Source: a virus. From it: DNA of 64,000 bases. Positions 13,975 through 59,611 of the stretch are shown here, piece by piece. Location: IMG/VR virus record IMGVR_UViG_3300018875_000005, positions 22,093 through 86,092 of that record, one strand, 5' to 3'. Position numbers and translations under genes: made by a program. Position 1 is the first letter of the stretch. Every line of letters starts with the position of its first letter. The notes beneath the pieces are model-generated. The model was not told where the DNA came from. It made no database searches and saw nothing but the letters and a program-made list of their open reading frames with translations.

Positions 13975-14361
13975 ATGAGCGACGGCTTGAGCGAGGACGT
14001 GCGCCAGCACGTCCACTCCCTCTTCTTCGACCAGATGAAAATCTGCGGCTGCGGCCTGCCCGAACTCACCCTCGAACTCGTCCGGGACCTCCTGACCGTC
14101 ATCGAGGAGCGTGGGCGCACCGAGACCGTCATCCCCCACGAGGGCGCCCGTCACATCGTCCTGTCCGTCCTGGATAACATCGACCTGATCGAACACGGCA
14201 GCATCATCGACGCCGCCTGGCTGACGAAGAAGGGCCGGTGGTACCTGCGCGCCCTCCAACGCGTCGAGTGGGAAGACATCGAAGACGAAGGCGTCGGCCT
14301 GCCCCACGACGGCACGCCCTGCACCGAAGCATGCCTCAAGCCCTTCTGGATTCAGCAGTGA
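13975..14361 (+). CDS. Small protein overlapping the recombinase gene
   Basis: A 128-residue protein with a GGAGAG ribosome-binding site, coupled to the recombinase downstream by a GTGA overlap. It contains KICGCGLPELTLELVRDLLT and, near the C-terminus, HDGTPCTEACLKPFW, so a small metal site is possible; most of the chain is helical. Its fixed place in front of two recombinase genes suggests an accessory role, perhaps like the small third protein of some multi-recombinase elements. That is inference. No family is recognised. The 236 bases upstream hold no gene; a GATAAT hexamer at 13928-13933 could be a -10 box. Confidence 0.74.
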   Translation: MSDGLSEDVRQHVHSLFFDQMKICGCGLPELTLELVRDLLTVIEERGRTETVIPHEGARHIVLSVLDNIDLIEHGSIIDAAWLTKKGRWYLRALQRVEWEDIEDEGVGLPHDGTPCTEACLKPFWIQQ

Positions 14362-15488
14362 GCGAGCACGACGACGCGGACGAGGTGGTCGACGCCGAAC
14401 TGGTCGACGACCACCTGCCCGCCCGACGCAACACCGGCCTGCCCGCGCACCCCGGTACCAAGAACGACCCCGACGCCTGGCTCCCCCCGGAGGTCCAAGA
14501 GGACGTCAAGGCGGGCATCGCCGACGCCACCGACCGCGCCTACACCGCGGACTTCGAGCAGTTCGCCGCCTGGTGCGCCACGGTCGGCCGGCGCCCCATG
14601 CCCGCCGCGGCGCAGACCGTCACCCACTACATCTCCACCCTGACCCGCACCCCGCGGGCCAAGACCGGGCGGCCGTACAGCCCGGCCACACTGGAACGCA
14701 TCATCGCCGCGATCCGCACCACCCACGCCGCCGCCGACCAGCCCATCCCCGAGACCAAGGGAGCGCGGAAGGTCGTCGCCGGCTACCGGGAACGGCTGGC
14801 CAACGCCAAGGACCCGGCCGCCGCCCCCCGGCGGGTGTCCCCCGCCCTGCCGGACATCGTGCGGCGGGCGCTGGCCCCGCTCGACCGCACCACCCTGCGC
14901 GGCAAGCGGGACGCCGCGCTGCTGCTGCTGGGGTTCGCCTGCGCGGCCAGGGCGAGCGAGCTGGTGGCCCTGGACATCGACAGCGTCACCACCCCGCCCG
15001 AGGTGGAGGGCATCGGCGTGAAGGTGAAGCTGTACCGCAGGAAGGTCAAGAAGTGGCAGGACATCACGGTGAAGTACGGGAAGGACCCCGACACGTGCCC
15101 GGTGCGGGCCGTCCGCGCGCTCATCGCCGCGCTGGCCGACGAGGGCCACACCGCGGGGCCGCTGTTCCTGCGGATCGACCGGTGGGGGTACCTCGCCCCG
15201 CCCATGTACCGGGGCGGCCGGCCGATCGGTGATCCCAGCGGGCGGATGACGGAGGAGGCAGCCTCGGACGTGGTGGAGAAGGCGATGGCGCGGGTCGGGC
15301 AGCCGGGCCGGTGGCGGTCTCACTCGCTGCGGCGGGGCTTCGTCACCGCGGCGCGGAAGGCTGGTGCCGACCCGGTGCACACCAGTAGACATGGCGGCTG
15401 GGTCGATGGGTCCAAGGCGTACCAGAGCTACATCGAAGAAGACGACGGGCTGGGCGACGACAACCCGCTCACCGACATCGGACTGTGA
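14358..15488 (+). CDS. Tyrosine recombinase / integrase
   Basis: A 376-residue protein (GTG start in a GTGA overlap). Residues about 50-150 are a SAM-like core-binding domain (DFEQFAAWCATVGRRPMP); residues 165-370 are the catalytic domain. Catalytic residues are visible: R198 (CAARASEL), H322 and R325 (HSLRRG), H345 (RHGGW) and nucleophile Y355 (KAYQSY). The set appears complete, so it should cut and rejoin DNA. Phages use such enzymes for integration; here it lies in a block flanked by a 34-bp inverted repeat. The next gene encodes a related protein that lacks the tyrosine. Confidence 0.93.
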   Translation: MSEHDDADEVVDAELVDDHLPARRNTGLPAHPGTKNDPDAWLPPEVQEDVKAGIADATDRAYTADFEQFAAWCATVGRRPMPAAAQTVTHYISTLTRTPRAKTGRPYSPATLERIIAAIRTTHAAADQPIPETKGARKVVAGYRERLANAKDPAAAPRRVSPALPDIVRRALAPLDRTTLRGKRDAALLLLGFACAARASELVALDIDSVTTPPEVEGIGVKVKLYRRKVKKWQDITVKYGKDPDTCPVRAVRALIAALADEGHTAGPLFLRIDRWGYLAPPMYRGGRPIGDPSGRMTEEAASDVVEKAMARVGQPGRWRSHSLRRGFVTAARKAGADPVHTSRHGGWVDGSKAYQSYIEEDDGLGDDNPLTDIGL

Positions 15489-15499
15489 GGGGAGCCAGG

Positions 15500-16747
15500 G
15501 TGACCACTGAGGCGCAGGCGCCGTCGATCGTGCAGCTCGGGGCGGTGGTGGACCGGCTCGCCCCGGCCGTGTCCGGCTCCCGGCTGCGGCAACTGCGGTG
15601 GGTGGCCGGGGAGATGGAGCGGGCGCTGGCCGATCCGGTGATGCCCGCCGAGGCCCGCGCGAGCCTGCGGGGGCTGCTGGGGGATGAGGCGGTGATGGTG
15701 TACCTGACGCTGGCCGCGGCGGGGCGGCTGCGGCGGGTGGACAGCCGCCGGGCGGGGCCGTCGCGGGCGTCCATGAGCGTGCGGGTGTCGTGTCTGCGGC
15801 AGATCGCCGCGGCGGCCGGGGTGGAGGTGGCGGTGCCGAGCGTGCCGCAGCCGGAGGCGAGGCCGGAGATTCCGCAGCATCAGCAGGCGGCGCTGTACCG
15901 GAGGTTGGTGGACATGGCGTCCGGGGGTCCGCTGTCCCGGGACGGCACCAGCCTGTCGGTCGAGGATCGGACGCGGCTGCTGGCGATGGTGGCGGTGGTG
16001 CTGGATACCGGGGCGCGGACGGGGGAGCTGGCCGCGCTGCGCATGTCCGACCTGGACCTGGAGGGCGGGGTGGTCGCGGTGCGGCGGCGGGTGCAGCGGG
16101 CGTCGGAGATGCAGGTGGCGCGGGTGGCGGCCCGGGTGGGGCTGGACCGGTCGACGGTGGGGCGGGTGCTGTCCGGCCGGCTGACGGGGTTCCGGCTGAG
16201 TGAGGAGGCCCGGCGGGCGGTGTGGGAGGTGTATGAGGAGGTGGCGGGCCGGCCGGTGGTGGAGGTGTGCCGGCTGCGGGAGGGCACGGTGGTGGCGGTG
16301 CGGCGCTGGCTGAAGGTCCGGGAGGGCCTGGTGGCGGGGCTGGAGGGCCGGGTGGAGGCGGTGTGGGTGTCGCTGGCGGCGAACGCGGTGAGCCTGCCGG
16401 GGTTGCCGTTGCAGCCGCGGGGGTTGCGGCGGGCGTACAGCCGGGGGGTGGTGGCGCTGAACTGGGTGATGGCCGGGGAGCACGGCTGGGAGCCGCTGCC
16501 GACGGCGTTGGAGACGCTGCGCCGGTCGGTGGAGGTCCGGCCGGCGGAGGAGCCGGCGGGGCCGGTATATGAGCGGCATCTGGGTGGGCGTCCGCATGCG
16601 GTGTTGTCGGAGGAGCAGCGGGAGCTGGCGCGGGTGTTGCTGGCGGATCCGGGGGTGACGGTGGAGGAGGTGATCCGCCGGGTGGGGACGTCGCGGGATG
16701 TGTTGTATCGGGAGGTGCCGGAGGCGCGGTCGCGTCGGCGGTTGTAG
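15500..16747 (+). CDS. Recombinase-like partner protein lacking the nucleophile, with embedded HTH
   Basis: About 415 residues. GAGGGGAG supports GTG 15500; GTG 15485, overlapping the recombinase stop, is possible. The catalytic-domain outline is kept: R173 (GARTGELAALRMSDLDL), L309-R310-R311 in place of HxLRR, with R307 where the His should be, and H328 in EHGWE. No tyrosine is found at the expected distance: the position aligned with Y355 of the neighbour is in TALETLRR. Between the first Arg box and LRR lies a LacI-type HTH (VARVAARVGLDRSTVGRVLS, about residues 205-225). A second resolvase-like HTH ends the protein (VTVEEVIRRVGTSRDVLYRE). It is probably a non-catalytic DNA-binding partner of the upstream recombinase. 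Confidence 0.8.
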   Translation: MTTEAQAPSIVQLGAVVDRLAPAVSGSRLRQLRWVAGEMERALADPVMPAEARASLRGLLGDEAVMVYLTLAAAGRLRRVDSRRAGPSRASMSVRVSCLRQIAAAAGVEVAVPSVPQPEARPEIPQHQQAALYRRLVDMASGGPLSRDGTSLSVEDRTRLLAMVAVVLDTGARTGELAALRMSDLDLEGGVVAVRRRVQRASEMQVARVAARVGLDRSTVGRVLSGRLTGFRLSEEARRAVWEVYEEVAGRPVVEVCRLREGTVVAVRRWLKVREGLVAGLEGRVEAVWVSLAANAVSLPGLPLQPRGLRRAYSRGVVALNWVMAGEHGWEPLPTALETLRRSVEVRPAEEPAGPVYERHLGGRPHAVLSEEQRELARVLLADPGVTVEEVIRRVGTSRDVLYREVPEARSRRRL

Positions 16748-53758: not shown

Positions 53759-55126
53759 TCAGCCAGCGGCCTGCTCGTGGCACACCTTGTCCGCCGGCAG
53801 CCCGTCATCATCCCGCATGTGAGTGGGCTTACCGCAGTGCACGCACGGCTTCTTCACCGGCGACCAGTGACGCGGATGACGCCAGTCGACGACCGGCGCC
53901 TTCCTCCCCCGCTCCGTCTGGGAAGCGGGACGCGGGGCGGGCACCACCGGACGCGGTACTCGCTCCTCGGGCCGCAGCAGGGCCTCCGCGTCGGTAACGG
54001 CCGGCACCGCCCGGGGCACCGGGATACCCGGCCGAGGGGACGCAGTGGCCGCTGCCGGGGCGGGAAGCGACCGCCGAACGACCGGGAGGGGCGGCGGGGA
54101 CGGACGGAGGGCTGGAGAGGCCGTGGGTGATTGGGTCGGGGCCGGTCCGCGGTTCTGCTGTTCCCACGGGCGGCAGGTCGGACCGTTGAGGCTGGCGCCG
54201 CCAGGCGGCTCCGGTTCCTCTCCCAATCCGTCGCCCGCGTTGTCGTTGCCGGAGCGGCCCTCAAGAAGGTCTAGGTACCGATCTCGGTCATCGGACGGTA
54301 CCCAGAAGCGGTGCACGCGGGTCTTGAGACGGTACTCCAGGGGCACCACCTCGCCGCCTGCGGTGCCGCGGACCATGTCGTCGAACAGGATGTCCCGCGG
54401 CTTGGGCACGGCGTGGAGCTTGCCGCAGCGGCGGTAAACGGCGCTGTCCGGACACGGCAGGTCGGCGGTGACGTCGCAGCGGAAGAAGTCCAGCACCCGG
54501 TAGCCGGACACCACACGCAGGTCACCGTTCTTGGCGATGACCTCGGCGGGGAGGCGGTCGGAGCGGGTCCACTGGGTGTCGCGGCGGTCGGCGTAGTCGC
54601 GGCGGTCGGTGTGCCAGGCCGGGGTGATGCCGTTCCTGACGGCGCGTTGGGCGCGGGCCCTCACGCTGCGGGGCCCGTCGTGTTCGGCGGTGGAGAGCTG
54701 CACCTCCCACCCGACGCGGCGGCCGTCGGCCTCGACCAGGGCGTCGGTGCGGATTCCGCGGGCGGTGACCTCGGTGTCGGCGGTGAAGCCGGCCTCGACG
54801 GCGACGCGGACGATGCGTTCCTTGTACGCCTTGTGCTCGTCGGTTTCGGCCGCCTGGTGGCGGGCTTCGTCCTCGGCGCGCTGGTGGACGGCCTCACGGC
54901 GGCCGTTGGCGCGTTGCCGCAGGTGCATCCAGGCGATGACGCCCTGGTCTCGGCAGATTCCGGCGCACTGGAGCCCGCGTTTCTCGACGGGGATCCTTCG
55001 AGCGGCGAAGATCTTTTGCTCCCGGTAGACGTGCTCCCACAGGTCGGGGATTTCGGGGTGTCCGAGGTCTTCACGCTCGAGCTTGAGTTCCAGACCGAAA
55101 CCGACGTGCCAGACGGGGTTCGCCAA
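53759..55126 (-). CDS. CoiA-like putative nuclease
   Basis: About 455 residues from TTG 55126, which has AAGGAG 7 nt upstream. No ATG/GTG in this frame has such support, and the frame further upstream looks non-coding. Residues 110-200 resemble the nuclease part of competence protein CoiA: TEVTARGIRTDALVEADGRR, VGWEVQLSTAEHDGPRSVRA. The D and E-x-Q fit the PD-(D/E)xK pattern. A Cys-containing region (CDVTADLPCPDSAVYRRCGK) and a Pro-rich linker follow. The end has CVHCGKPTHMRDDDG, a zinc knuckle. It may cut DNA for transfer or defence; the function is unproven. Confidence 0.68.
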   Translation of the reverse strand: MANPVWHVGFGLELKLEREDLGHPEIPDLWEHVYREQKIFAARRIPVEKRGLQCAGICRDQGVIAWMHLRQRANGRREAVHQRAEDEARHQAAETDEHKAYKERIVRVAVEAGFTADTEVTARGIRTDALVEADGRRVGWEVQLSTAEHDGPRSVRARAQRAVRNGITPAWHTDRRDYADRRDTQWTRSDRLPAEVIAKNGDLRVVSGYRVLDFFRCDVTADLPCPDSAVYRRCGKLHAVPKPRDILFDDMVRGTAGGEVVPLEYRLKTRVHRFWVPSDDRDRYLDLLEGRSGNDNAGDGLGEEPEPPGGASLNGPTCRPWEQQNRGPAPTQSPTASPALRPSPPPLPVVRRSLPAPAAATASPRPGIPVPRAVPAVTDAEALLRPEERVPRPVVPAPRPASQTERGRKAPVVDWRHPRHWSPVKKPCVHCGKPTHMRDDDGLPADKVCHEQAAG

Positions 55127-55348
55127 GACGGTCTCCTTCCACGCGGCAGGCTGGGCAGTGCCGGAGGGTGGAGCAAGCGTCTCGCAAGGGACTGACAGTC
55201 CGATAGAGGAAGGCGTGGGACATGGCCGACAGGCGTTCGTTCTTCGGCTGTGTGTGGGGAACCTGGAGGGCCGGCGCCCGGACCTGGTGGAGGCCACGGA
55301 CACCGGCCACGCCGCGCTGAAGGACTGAGCGCTGGAATAACCCATGGG

Positions 55349-56666: not shown

Positions 56667-58136
56667 TCAGAACGGGGCGTTGATGCAGTACGCCTCGACC
56701 TGCTCCGGAGTGCCGTATCGGGCGGCGTACTGGGCGCGGAGCCGCGCCGTCTCGAGGTCCGCCCCGTTCTCCTCGGGCTCCGGCCCGGGCACCGTGGGGG
56801 CGGCTCCCAAGACCGCGGCCAGTACCGCCGAGGCCTCCCGGCACGCGCCGCACATCGACTCGTCACCGCTGCGGATGAGCGGGTTGCCGCAGGCGCATTC
56901 CCGGTAGCCCCGGCCGCCCTTGCTGGAACGCTCCGCCCGGCTGGTGTCGTCGGCCCCCTGGCGGCGCTCCGCCTTCCGGGCCGCGATCCGCTCCGGGCAC
57001 ACCGGGCACTCCGCGCCAGTGTCCACGTCCACGCCGTCCTCACACCGCGGATTCGCGCACCCGTACCGGTCCGACGCCTTCAACGGCCGCACCATCGCGA
57101 TCGCGGCGCCCACCGGGTTGGTCAGTTCCCCGGCGTGGAACTTCGCCGCGTAGCCGTGGTGGTCCCACCGCCGCTGGATCCGGGCCCCGAGCTGTCCCAC
57201 AGTCCGGTCGGCGCCGGGCACGTCGCCGGCGAGGGCGTCCAGGATCGCCTGCGTCAGGGCCGGCACCAGGCGGATGCGCAGTTCGGGCGGGTAGAACGCG
57301 CACACCTTGCGGGCGGTGTCCAACTGCTGCTTGGTGTGCGGTGCCTTCCGACCGGCCTGCGACTGGTCGTCGTGCTGGGTGGGGGAGGGCTGGTTCTTGC
57401 TGGACGCGGCGCAGCCGCCTTCACGCGCGCGCACGCTACTACCTGTAGATGAGGGCCTACGGCCGTCCACGCCGCTACGCGGCGAAGCCGCCTCCCCAAC
57501 CTGTTCCGTACCAACTGTAGGTACCAGAGGGAGGTCGGGTTCTTCCAGCTCAGGGGCCGGGTCCGGGTCGGATTTACGACCCCGCGGGTCGGAATTCCAC
57601 CCCGGCGGGGTGGAATTCCGACCCGCGCCCTCCTCAGCACCCTCTCCCGGGTCGGAATTCCGACCCGCCTCGGCCTCCTCCACCCTCTGGGTGATGGCCG
57701 CCAGCTTCGCCTCCGTATTCCGCCACCCCGTGTAGCCCTCCGCAGGCATGTCGTTGATCCGCAACCGGATCGGCTTCCGCGCCGCACTCGCCCGCGACGA
57801 GGTCTTCACCGGACCGCCCTCCGGCGTCGACACCAGCCCCACCGCCGACAGACCGGCCAGGATGTCCCGCACCCGCGTCAGGCTGCTGGGCTTCCCCTTC
57901 GGCCCCGGAATCAGCTCGCACAGCACGGCCAGCGTCAGCTTCCGGACCGGGTTCTTGTACTTCTCGATGACCAGCGAGCGCAGGATGTTGTAGCCGCGCA
58001 CGTCGCTGTCCTTCAGCGCCGGGCACAGCGCGATCCAGTCGTAGACCCGGGTGGTGTACCAGCCGCCGTCCTCGGGGCCGTACAGCTCGACGGGGGTCTC
58101 CCCCTCGGGCCCGTACTGGAGCCCGCCGGCCGTCAT
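56667..58136 (-). CDS. Second Rep-like winged-helix protein with zinc sites
   Basis: A 489-residue protein. Residues 20-130 form a winged-helix domain: WYTTRVYDWIALCPALKDSD, YKNPVRKLTLAVLCELIPG and SSLTRVRDILAGLSAVGLVS. A repetitive linker (RNSDPGEGAEEGAGRNST and relatives, about 155-200) matches four DNA palindromes at 57565-57667. A helical domain (about 285-350, RLVPALTQAILDALAGDVPG) recalls that of the Rep-like protein at 26781. The C-terminus has CANPRCEDGVDVDTGAECPVC-type and CACGNPL...CGAC zinc ribbons. Replication or plasmid regulation is likely, but initiator function is not shown. Confidence 0.72.
   Translation of the reverse strand: MTAGGLQYGPEGETPVELYGPEDGGWYTTRVYDWIALCPALKDSDVRGYNILRSLVIEKYKNPVRKLTLAVLCELIPGPKGKPSSLTRVRDILAGLSAVGLVSTPEGGPVKTSSRASAARKPIRLRINDMPAEGYTGWRNTEAKLAAITQRVEEAEAGRNSDPGEGAEEGAGRNSTPPGWNSDPRGRKSDPDPAPELEEPDLPLVPTVGTEQVGEAASPRSGVDGRRPSSTGSSVRAREGGCAASSKNQPSPTQHDDQSQAGRKAPHTKQQLDTARKVCAFYPPELRIRLVPALTQAILDALAGDVPGADRTVGQLGARIQRRWDHHGYAAKFHAGELTNPVGAAIAMVRPLKASDRYGCANPRCEDGVDVDTGAECPVCPERIAARKAERRQGADDTSRAERSSKGGRGYRECACGNPLIRSGDESMCGACREASAVLAAVLGAAPTVPGPEPEENGADLETARLRAQYAARYGTPEQVEAYCINAPF
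57565..57667. repeat. Four iteron-like palindromes within the Rep-like gene
   Basis: Copies at 57565-57582 (GGGTCGGATTTACGACCC), 57586-57602 (GGGTCGGAATTCCACCC), 57608-57624 (GGGTGGAATTCCGACCC) and 57648-57667 (perfect 20-bp dyad around GGTCGGAATTCCGACC). They encode an R-N-S-[DT]-P repeat in the linker, so protein repeat and DNA repeat coincide. Streptomyces replicons can carry iterons in or beside rep genes; an origin role is inference. Confidence 0.75.
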
Positions 58137-58368: not shown

Positions 58369-58620
58369 TCACGATGCGTCCTCGGGCTTGCCGTAGTAGG
58401 CCCGGAAGAAGTCAACGAACGGCTCTGTGGCCATCACCGTGGCGTTGGACAGCGACCAGTACGGGTGCTCCCGCCCCGGGCCGAACGGCCACTTCGGATG
58501 GGTGGCGGCGATGTGTCTGATGCCCTGATGGGTGATGTGGTCGACGATTCCCAGGTCAACAAGGAGTTGGGCGCCGCTTTTGAAGGTGACGGCGGGAGGA
58601 AGCTGTTCCGGGGTCTTCAC
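58369..58620 (-). CDS. Small HTH-like protein
   Basis: An 83-residue protein. KSGAQLLVDLGIVDHITHQG and IRHIAATHPKWPFGPGREHP look like a short excisionase/HTH-type fold with a wing. It lies between the GntR gene and the Rep-like gene on the same strand. Start ATG 58620 has no strong ribosome-binding site. Regulatory role possible. Confidence 0.62.
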   Translation of the reverse strand: MKTPEQLPPAVTFKSGAQLLVDLGIVDHITHQGIRHIAATHPKWPFGPGREHPYWSLSNATVMATEPFVDFFRAYYGKPEDAS

Positions 58621-58813: not shown

Positions 58814-59611
58814 CTACGTCACGTCCCTCTCCTCCCGCGGCCAGGCCGCCGACTCATCCCGCTGCACCGCATACGACACAGCGAACTGCGCGGACCCCAT
58901 CCTGGTTTCGTTGACCTCGACAGGGATCTCCTCCCCATCACGATGGATCACCGACAAGCGCGTCACGACCAAAACCGGGACATCAGACGAGATGCCCAGC
59001 GCCTTCTGCTCCGCGGCGTCCGGCCGGCGGGCTGAGATGGTCTCCCGCCAGTGCAGCGGCGCGTTGAAGTGGTGTTCGGCCACGTCGTAGATGCCGCACT
59101 TGTCAGGGGCTCCCGGCCGTTCGGCCCGTAGCTCTGGGATCTCCACGGTCAGTGGCAGCGGGATGTAGCTGGTCGCCACCTGGAGTGCCTTCTTGGCGCC
59201 TGGGGGTCCCATGAGCCTGTTCCGGGTGAACGCCTCCTCGCCGTGCGGGATGCCCAGCATGTCGGCGACGTGAGTCGGCGGTGTGGCGAGACCCCGGGTG
59301 GGCGGCTCGACTGGGCGCCACTCCTTGGCGTTCTGGTCGAAGAAGTATCCGAGGTGGTCCCGGTAGACGGTCCGGTCCCGGACCACCATCACTTCCTTCG
59401 GGCGCTCCCGCACCACCGCCGGATGCTTCCTGATCAACGTCAGGTAGCCCTCTGCGGCGAGCTGCCGCAGAGCCTTGTAGACGGTGCCGCGGTGGGCGTT
59501 GTGCTGCTGCGCGAGGGCCTCCCCGGATGGCAGGGAGGACCCCGGCGGATACTCGCCCGCCTCAATCGCGGTGCGGATCGCGTCCGCCACGCGATCGGTC
59601 GTCCCTGTCAT
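58814..59611 (-). CDS. GntR/HutC-family transcriptional regulator
   Basis: A 265-residue protein. Residues 6-73 form a GntR winged helix: RVADAIRTAIEAGEYPPGSS, LPSGEALAQQHNAHRGTVYK and ALRQLAAEGYLTLIR. Residues 90-255 form a UTRA-type ligand domain (KALQVATSYIPLPLTVEIPE; VLVVTRLSVIHRDGEEIPVE). Regulators of this type (Kor/TraR group) control transfer genes of Streptomyces plasmids and integrative elements. It is divergent to a rightward gene run ending in DUF2637, so control of that run through the CTACCG dyad at 59663 is likely (inference). Confidence 0.9.
   Translation of the reverse strand: MTGTTDRVADAIRTAIEAGEYPPGSSLPSGEALAQQHNAHRGTVYKALRQLAAEGYLTLIRKHPAVVRERPKEVMVVRDRTVYRDHLGYFFDQNAKEWRPVEPPTRGLATPPTHVADMLGIPHGEEAFTRNRLMGPPGAKKALQVATSYIPLPLTVEIPELRAERPGAPDKCGIYDVAEHHFNAPLHWRETISARRPDAAEQKALGISSDVPVLVVTRLSVIHRDGEEIPVEVNETRMGSAQFAVSYAVQRDESAAWPREERDVT

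Follow-up and report, generated by a model that had tools for sequence, protein, structure and literature searches.

An initiator-like gene in a Streptomyces-type phage-plasmid

The locus under study is an open reading frame for an initiator-like (Rep) protein of 489 amino acids (positions 56667–58136, minus strand). It lies in a 64-kb window, by which we mean the whole stretch of DNA analysed, itself a part of the 86,092-bp record IMGVR_UViG_3300018875_000005, classed as viral. Upstream of rep are a small ORF of 83 amino acids (58369–58620, minus strand), common at the same position in relatives, and a gene for a GntR/UTRA regulator recognised by profile match (58814–59611, minus strand); the order GntR, small ORF, rep is found again in pZL12, pSAM1 and others. 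Downstream of rep, a 528-amino-acid protein has a weak match to CoiA nuclease (53759–55345, minus strand).

Besides the GntR regulator, the genes of the element include those for tape measure and distal tail proteins, an endolysin, ParA/ParB and a DUF2637 transfer-type protein. The combination of phage tail genes and endolysin with ParA/ParB and DUF2637 identifies it as a Streptomyces-type phage-plasmid like pZL12: phage structural genes stand next to plasmid maintenance genes, and the length of the record falls within the range of about 85–95 kb of pZL12-like elements. Two neighbouring genes match tyrosine recombinase (Phage_integrase; 14238–16747, plus strand), so the element may also integrate. 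No dnaB gene was recognised beside rep in the window; several relatives of rep are located directly upstream of dnaB, with a rep-dnaB pair in L017, L028 and L029. This adjacency in relatives supports a role in replication, although not the detailed step of helicase or primase loading considered below.

Rep is laid out as an N-terminal domain, a disordered linker and a C-terminal domain with Cys-rich motifs. The protein has no match in Pfam, NCBIfam or PHROGs, and a sequence search of the PDB returned nothing usable. RepA_N (PF06970) was matched neither by the whole protein (Pfam) nor by 14 N-terminal domains, and the lambda O-type profile did not match Rep in Pfam or PHROGs; at the level of profile comparison, Rep is without detectable sequence relation to either family. 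Its relatives are encoded mostly on Streptomyces plasmids, phage-plasmids among them. AlphaFold was run twice on the N-terminal domain, the pLDDT being about 62 both times. Nothing usable was matched by the first model; for the second, of low to medium confidence and covering the conserved block at 57687–58094 (minus strand), the best Foldseek matches are wHTH regulators, but weak ones (E about 0.04). The models are suggestive of a winged helix (wHTH) in the N-terminal domain.

Phased palindromes within rep

The window and shuffled versions of it were searched for GGGTCGGAATTCCGACCC with at most three mismatches. Four matches occur, all inside 57565–57666, against a mean of 0.07 in the shuffles, which never contained four; no further copy exists elsewhere in the 86,092-bp record. 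The four palindromes that had been noticed in the gene by a first reading made without database searches (the sequence-only reading) are, hence, real and far above chance. Iteron 1 (57647–57666) includes the only perfect copy (57649–57666) and encodes GRNSDP. Iterons 2 (57605–57624) and 3 (57584–57603), which encode GRNSTP and GWNSDP on the minus strand, have one variant half each; taken together, the copies concerned (at 57607 and 57586) make up a perfect inverted repeat of 22 bp whose arms are 1 nt apart. Iteron 4 (57563–57582) is an imperfect palindrome encoding GRKSDP, the copy at 57565 having two mismatches. The repeat in the protein, given earlier as RNS[DT]P, proves to be slightly broader. 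The start-to-start spacing of 21, 21 and 42 bp corresponds to two and four helical turns; alike in sequence and helically phased (four in the window, three to five in relatives), the sites have the properties of iterons.

The half variants of the window imply another symmetric form: a single GGGGTGGAATTCCACCCC palindrome is found in a 249-kb metagenome viral contig (L010:3234–3251). Also in isolation, one genome has a single perfect GGTCGGAATTCCGACC on a contig other than that of rep (G004:C45:33405–33420).

Selection on the DNA of the repeats

Genes sharing one type of N-terminal domain were compared, 15 in number, from the window, IMG/VR contigs, plasmids such as pSAM1 and Streptomyces genomes. 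In all 15, three to five such repeats are found at a common position, where the N-terminal domain gives way to the C-terminal domain. The peptide G-R-x-S-D-P being itself repeated, these could be a feature of the protein, a repeat in its disordered linker, with palindromes that follow from biased codons. We recoded the same peptides synonymously with the genes’ own codon usage (5000 recodings) and scored complementary pairs between arms about a fixed axis, because a count of palindromes at free positions is weak for the window alone. Over the 15 genes, 494 of 590 pairs are complementary, compared with 308 ± 9 after recoding (z≈20; above all 5000 recodings); in the window alone, 33 of 40 pairs are complementary against 20.2 ± 2.5, a value reached by none of the 5000.

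The codons at the centre of the palindromes are equally telling. Asn is specified there by AAT in 28 of 28 cases (elsewhere in 14 of 140, 10%), Lys by AAA in 17 of 17 (elsewhere 7 of 238, 3%) and Ile by ATT in 11 of 11 (elsewhere 13 of 166, 8%); that is, these rare codons are used at 56 of 56 centres with Asn, Lys or Ile, as opposed to about 6% elsewhere. Among relatives, the DNA at the centre remains A/T whether the residue there is N, I, K or F. In L018 and L035, the outer G-C pair is changed to T-A with compensation, by which P in the peptide becomes Q; in L034, CGG..TCC is changed to CAG..TCT, again compensated, at the cost of an R to Q replacement plus a synonymous change. In L041, one palindrome core occurs in two reading frames of a single gene, read as GRISDH and as MVGNPP/LDGFPT.

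The synonymous null and the central codons contradict a repeat maintained for the protein, and the changes of frame preserve the DNA, not the peptide; we give that explanation next to no chance. The palindromes are selected as DNA, and the linker peptide would largely be a by-product. The sequence-only reading had named as the decisive objection relatives that keep the linker peptide and lose the palindrome; we observed the DNA to be kept despite changes in peptide, frame and location, and the objection therefore fails.

Palindromic repeats set in frame within a coding gene also bring to mind mobile elements like the Rickettsia palindromic elements. The repeats described here are, however, confined to one gene and to one site in it, and copies elsewhere in genomes of 6–11 Mb are almost absent, for which reason insertion of such an element strikes us as barely conceivable.

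Traces of decayed genes were also encountered. On a 428-kb linear plasmid, window-type palindromes persist in a broken rep remnant with no recognised N-terminal domain (L019:1512–1571), and a decayed rep elsewhere (L044; G246 C58) has one palindrome remaining, in another frame (SGSEFWPAG).

The type of iteron follows the N-terminal domain

Where the same C-terminal domain is joined to another N-terminal domain, different inverted repeats occupy the same place: GTTCCAGGATTCTGGAAC in pZL12 and L014, GTGGCGTCAT..TGACGCCAC in L022, GGGTGACATGTATGTCACCC in L024, and GGGGGACTCTGAGTCCCCC, listed for L062 and pCQ3. Five genes on linear and circular plasmids (L016–L018, L035 and L036) combine a window-type N-terminal domain with different C-terminal domains, and they retain the window palindrome. 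In a pairwise comparison over 43 distinct elements, an iteron-like 16-mer is common to all 88 pairs with similar N-terminal domains and to 112 of the 815 dissimilar pairs (Mantel 0/500), the latter share being a background of 14% that includes chance matches. Such a 16-mer is shared by 82 of 82 pairs with similar N-terminal and dissimilar C-terminal domains, as against 15 of 58 in the reverse case. In four members whose N-terminal domain is related (L029, L043, L045 and L046), the linker is Ala/Pro/Lys-rich and free of iterons, and the flanking DNA examined yielded no palindromic ones either; L046 resides in a 9-Mb contig, and L029 directly upstream of dnaB.

By association only, the sites thus appear specific to the N-terminal domain of the protein, a pattern that fits binding by that domain. 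The earlier proposal that the palindromes are a candidate binding site of the gene product is supported, at the level of sequence. An array of palindromes is also typical of parS, and the element encodes ParA/ParB, so a partition site, or an incompatibility site for another plasmid protein such as ParB, has to be weighed. The sequence of the array, however, goes with the N-terminal domain of the very protein that encodes it, and the array sits in that gene, about 25 kb away from parAB; a function of this kind seems to us very unlikely.

A conserved hairpin core adjoins the iterons

A second DNA-level element lies beside the iterons; neither this hairpin core nor the modular swapping of parts had been remarked on in the sequence-only reading. 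The core (57402–57492, minus strand; single copy in the window) was recognised by a peak of synonymous conservation, by alignment and by covariation. Codon identity at the peak is 0.93 versus 0.37 expected, while the folded C-terminal part shows roughly 0.5–0.7 versus 0.4–0.55. In this class of C-terminal domain, the peptide encoded by the core, just after the iterons, is of low complexity (..RSxxDGRRPSxGSSAREAEGGCAASGK..). The core is common to the class regardless of the type of iteron: a single copy was counted in each of 24 viral contigs (mostly 83–98 kb) and in each of 18 genomes among 394 of Streptomyces, a reversed control giving two matches.

Three small hairpins and one alternative are predicted in the core. 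Hairpin A (GCGGC-TTC-GCCGC; 57479–57491, minus strand) would have a GAA loop on the plus strand; in the alternative A2 (57471–57483), the 3′ arm of A pairs with the next GCGGC instead, with a GTA loop on the minus strand. Hairpin B (GGCC-GTA-GGCC; 57454–57464, minus strand) would have its GNA loop on the minus strand, and its stem varies with compensation among relatives, while hairpin E (GCGGC-TGC-GCCGC; 57406–57418, minus strand), with a GCA loop on the plus strand, is almost invariant. Stems A and B covary: pairing is seen in 97.7% of the cells, compared with 83.4 ± 1.4 after shuffling and no more than 59% after sliding; for stem A2, 100% of the cells pair. Nearly all loops read GNA or GNNA on one of the strands, which is the coding strand for B and A2 and its complement for A and E. 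As the core DNA folds no better than shuffled sequence (z about 0), it is covariation alone that argues for its structure.

Iterons and core outside the gene

In L079 (minus strand, about 88–125) and L020, frameshifts inside the core alter the peptide while the DNA element is kept. Two further members, L061 (plasmid CP108398) and L105 (a genome contig), have a rep with the same C-terminal domain; the linker of L061 visibly contains neither iterons nor core, and for L105 only the C-terminal part of rep is seen. In both, iterons followed by the core are present in non-coding DNA downstream of rep (L061:2381–2587; L105:1277–1538), without the conserved reading frame and, in L061, beyond a gene on the opposite strand. 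The two may be related and, hence, not fully independent. From these non-coding copies and the frameshifts in L079 and L020, the iterons plus core would therefore be a cis-acting DNA element that can reside inside or outside the gene.

These arrangements bear on two other functions. The stems covary and are within the transcript in most members, which would also suit a role of the core, and perhaps of the palindromes, in rep mRNA, for instance in translational or antisense control. Such a role is at odds with the position of the element outside rep in L061 and L105, in the former even past an opposite-strand gene, and with the loops, of which the GNA form appears on the non-coding strand for A and E and on the coding strand for A2 and B, as would suit single-stranded DNA. 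Moreover, Rfam yielded only chance microRNA models, on the palindromes. We consider control at the RNA level very unlikely.

Initiators often autoregulate, and palindromic dimer sites together with a probable wHTH domain would also suit a repressor, so that the palindromes could be operators for rep autoregulation or a transcription roadblock in the gene rather than an origin. They are, however, situated 470–570 bp into the gene with none near the promoter, each array has three to five phased copies and adjoins a conserved core, and in L061 and L105 iterons and core are downstream of rep. Operators or a roadblock are, to our judgement, unlikely.

Relation to known origins

That an origin can be contained in the gene of its initiator is already known. 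In lambda, 19-bp imperfect inverted-repeat iterons occur in the middle of the O gene, beside a second origin element (PMC7466680). The window element resembles this arrangement in having iterons inside the initiator gene plus a second element, and probably in a partnership between initiator and helicase; it differs in that the proteins have no sequence similarity that we could find (no Pfam match) and in that the iterons of lambda border on an AT-rich region, whereas here a GC-rich hairpin core takes that place and no AT-rich stretch adjoins the iterons (63–75% GC around the sites). In RepA_N plasmids such as pSK41, a wHTH N-terminal domain binds Rep boxes central in rep, the linker is dispensable and the C-terminal domain is separate; in the chimeric pPR9, the N-terminal domain and the origin have been exchanged together in nature (PMC5703833). 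The central position of the sites and the joint swap of N-terminal domain and origin are shared with RepA_N, but Rep of the window has no RepA_N match in Pfam, the hosts of RepA_N plasmids are Firmicutes and not Actinomycetes, and a hairpin core is not among the features described in the passages covered (PMC5703833).

Among Streptomyces replicons, a comparison can be drawn with the theta plasmids pFP1, pFP11 and pWTY27, on which the initiator binds repeats, either inverted or direct (PMC3583192). The iterons there are placed next to repA in the published description, whereas those reported here, L061 and L105 apart, fall within the gene. The pZL12.82 product is annotated as similar to pFP1.15c, and the name RepA is absent among the pZL12 GenBank features examined. 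The Streptomyces linear plasmid pSLA2 is reported to have iterons inside rep1 and a DnaB-like Rep2 (Chang, Kim and Cohen, 1996). By that description, pSLA2 Rep1/Rep2 can be likened to the rep-dnaB pair of L017, L028 and L029, the window element having no recognised dnaB. In Streptomyces telomeres, single-stranded DNA folds into hairpins whose GCA loops are closed by sheared G:A pairs (PMC4513846). GNA loops likewise characterise the core, the strand differing between its hairpins; unlike the telomere hairpins, the core is internal, present in one copy and found on circular as well as linear replicons.

The general principle is, therefore, that of lambda O and of RepA_N, including the pPR9 swap. 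In the literature covered, we found no description of a large series of swappable N-terminal domains with their iterons on Streptomyces phage-plasmids, nor of a covarying hairpin core, and these look like the new aspects.

A proposed origin and its exchangeable parts

Very probably, the palindromes are iterons and belong to a replication origin that lies within the initiator gene. The N-terminal domain would bind as a dimer to the 20-bp palindromes, which follow one another at two helical turns, and the bound complex would open the adjacent core; the strands of the core could then fold into small hairpins and, with the C-terminal domain, help to load helicase or primase. Since the binding domain and its site adjoin in one gene, they would be exchanged together as a cassette.

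More tentatively, and with somewhat more doubt than confidence, we suggest that one gene unites two exchangeable parts of an origin, the iteron array with the DNA-binding domain and the core with the C-terminal domain, the core folding in melted DNA into mini-hairpins with GNA loops on both strands (A and E on one, A2 and B on the other). If this is true, coding sequence would here contain an initiation site of a new kind, single-stranded, or a new kind of primase- or helicase-loading site. The strongly covarying hairpin core could, in any event, serve as a marker of these origins.

A swap of this one gene, by a single recombination, would replace the protein along with the DNA site that it recognises, and would thereby alter origin specificity and incompatibility. 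The iterons and core offer a clean case in which a function of the DNA dictates the sequence of a protein linker. For the plasmids and phage-plasmids of Streptomyces in question, a large group that for the most part lacks annotation and is represented by the 43 distinct elements compared, they provide a testable origin, which would allow the construction of minireplicons and vectors and predicts incompatibility from the N-terminal domain and the type of iteron.
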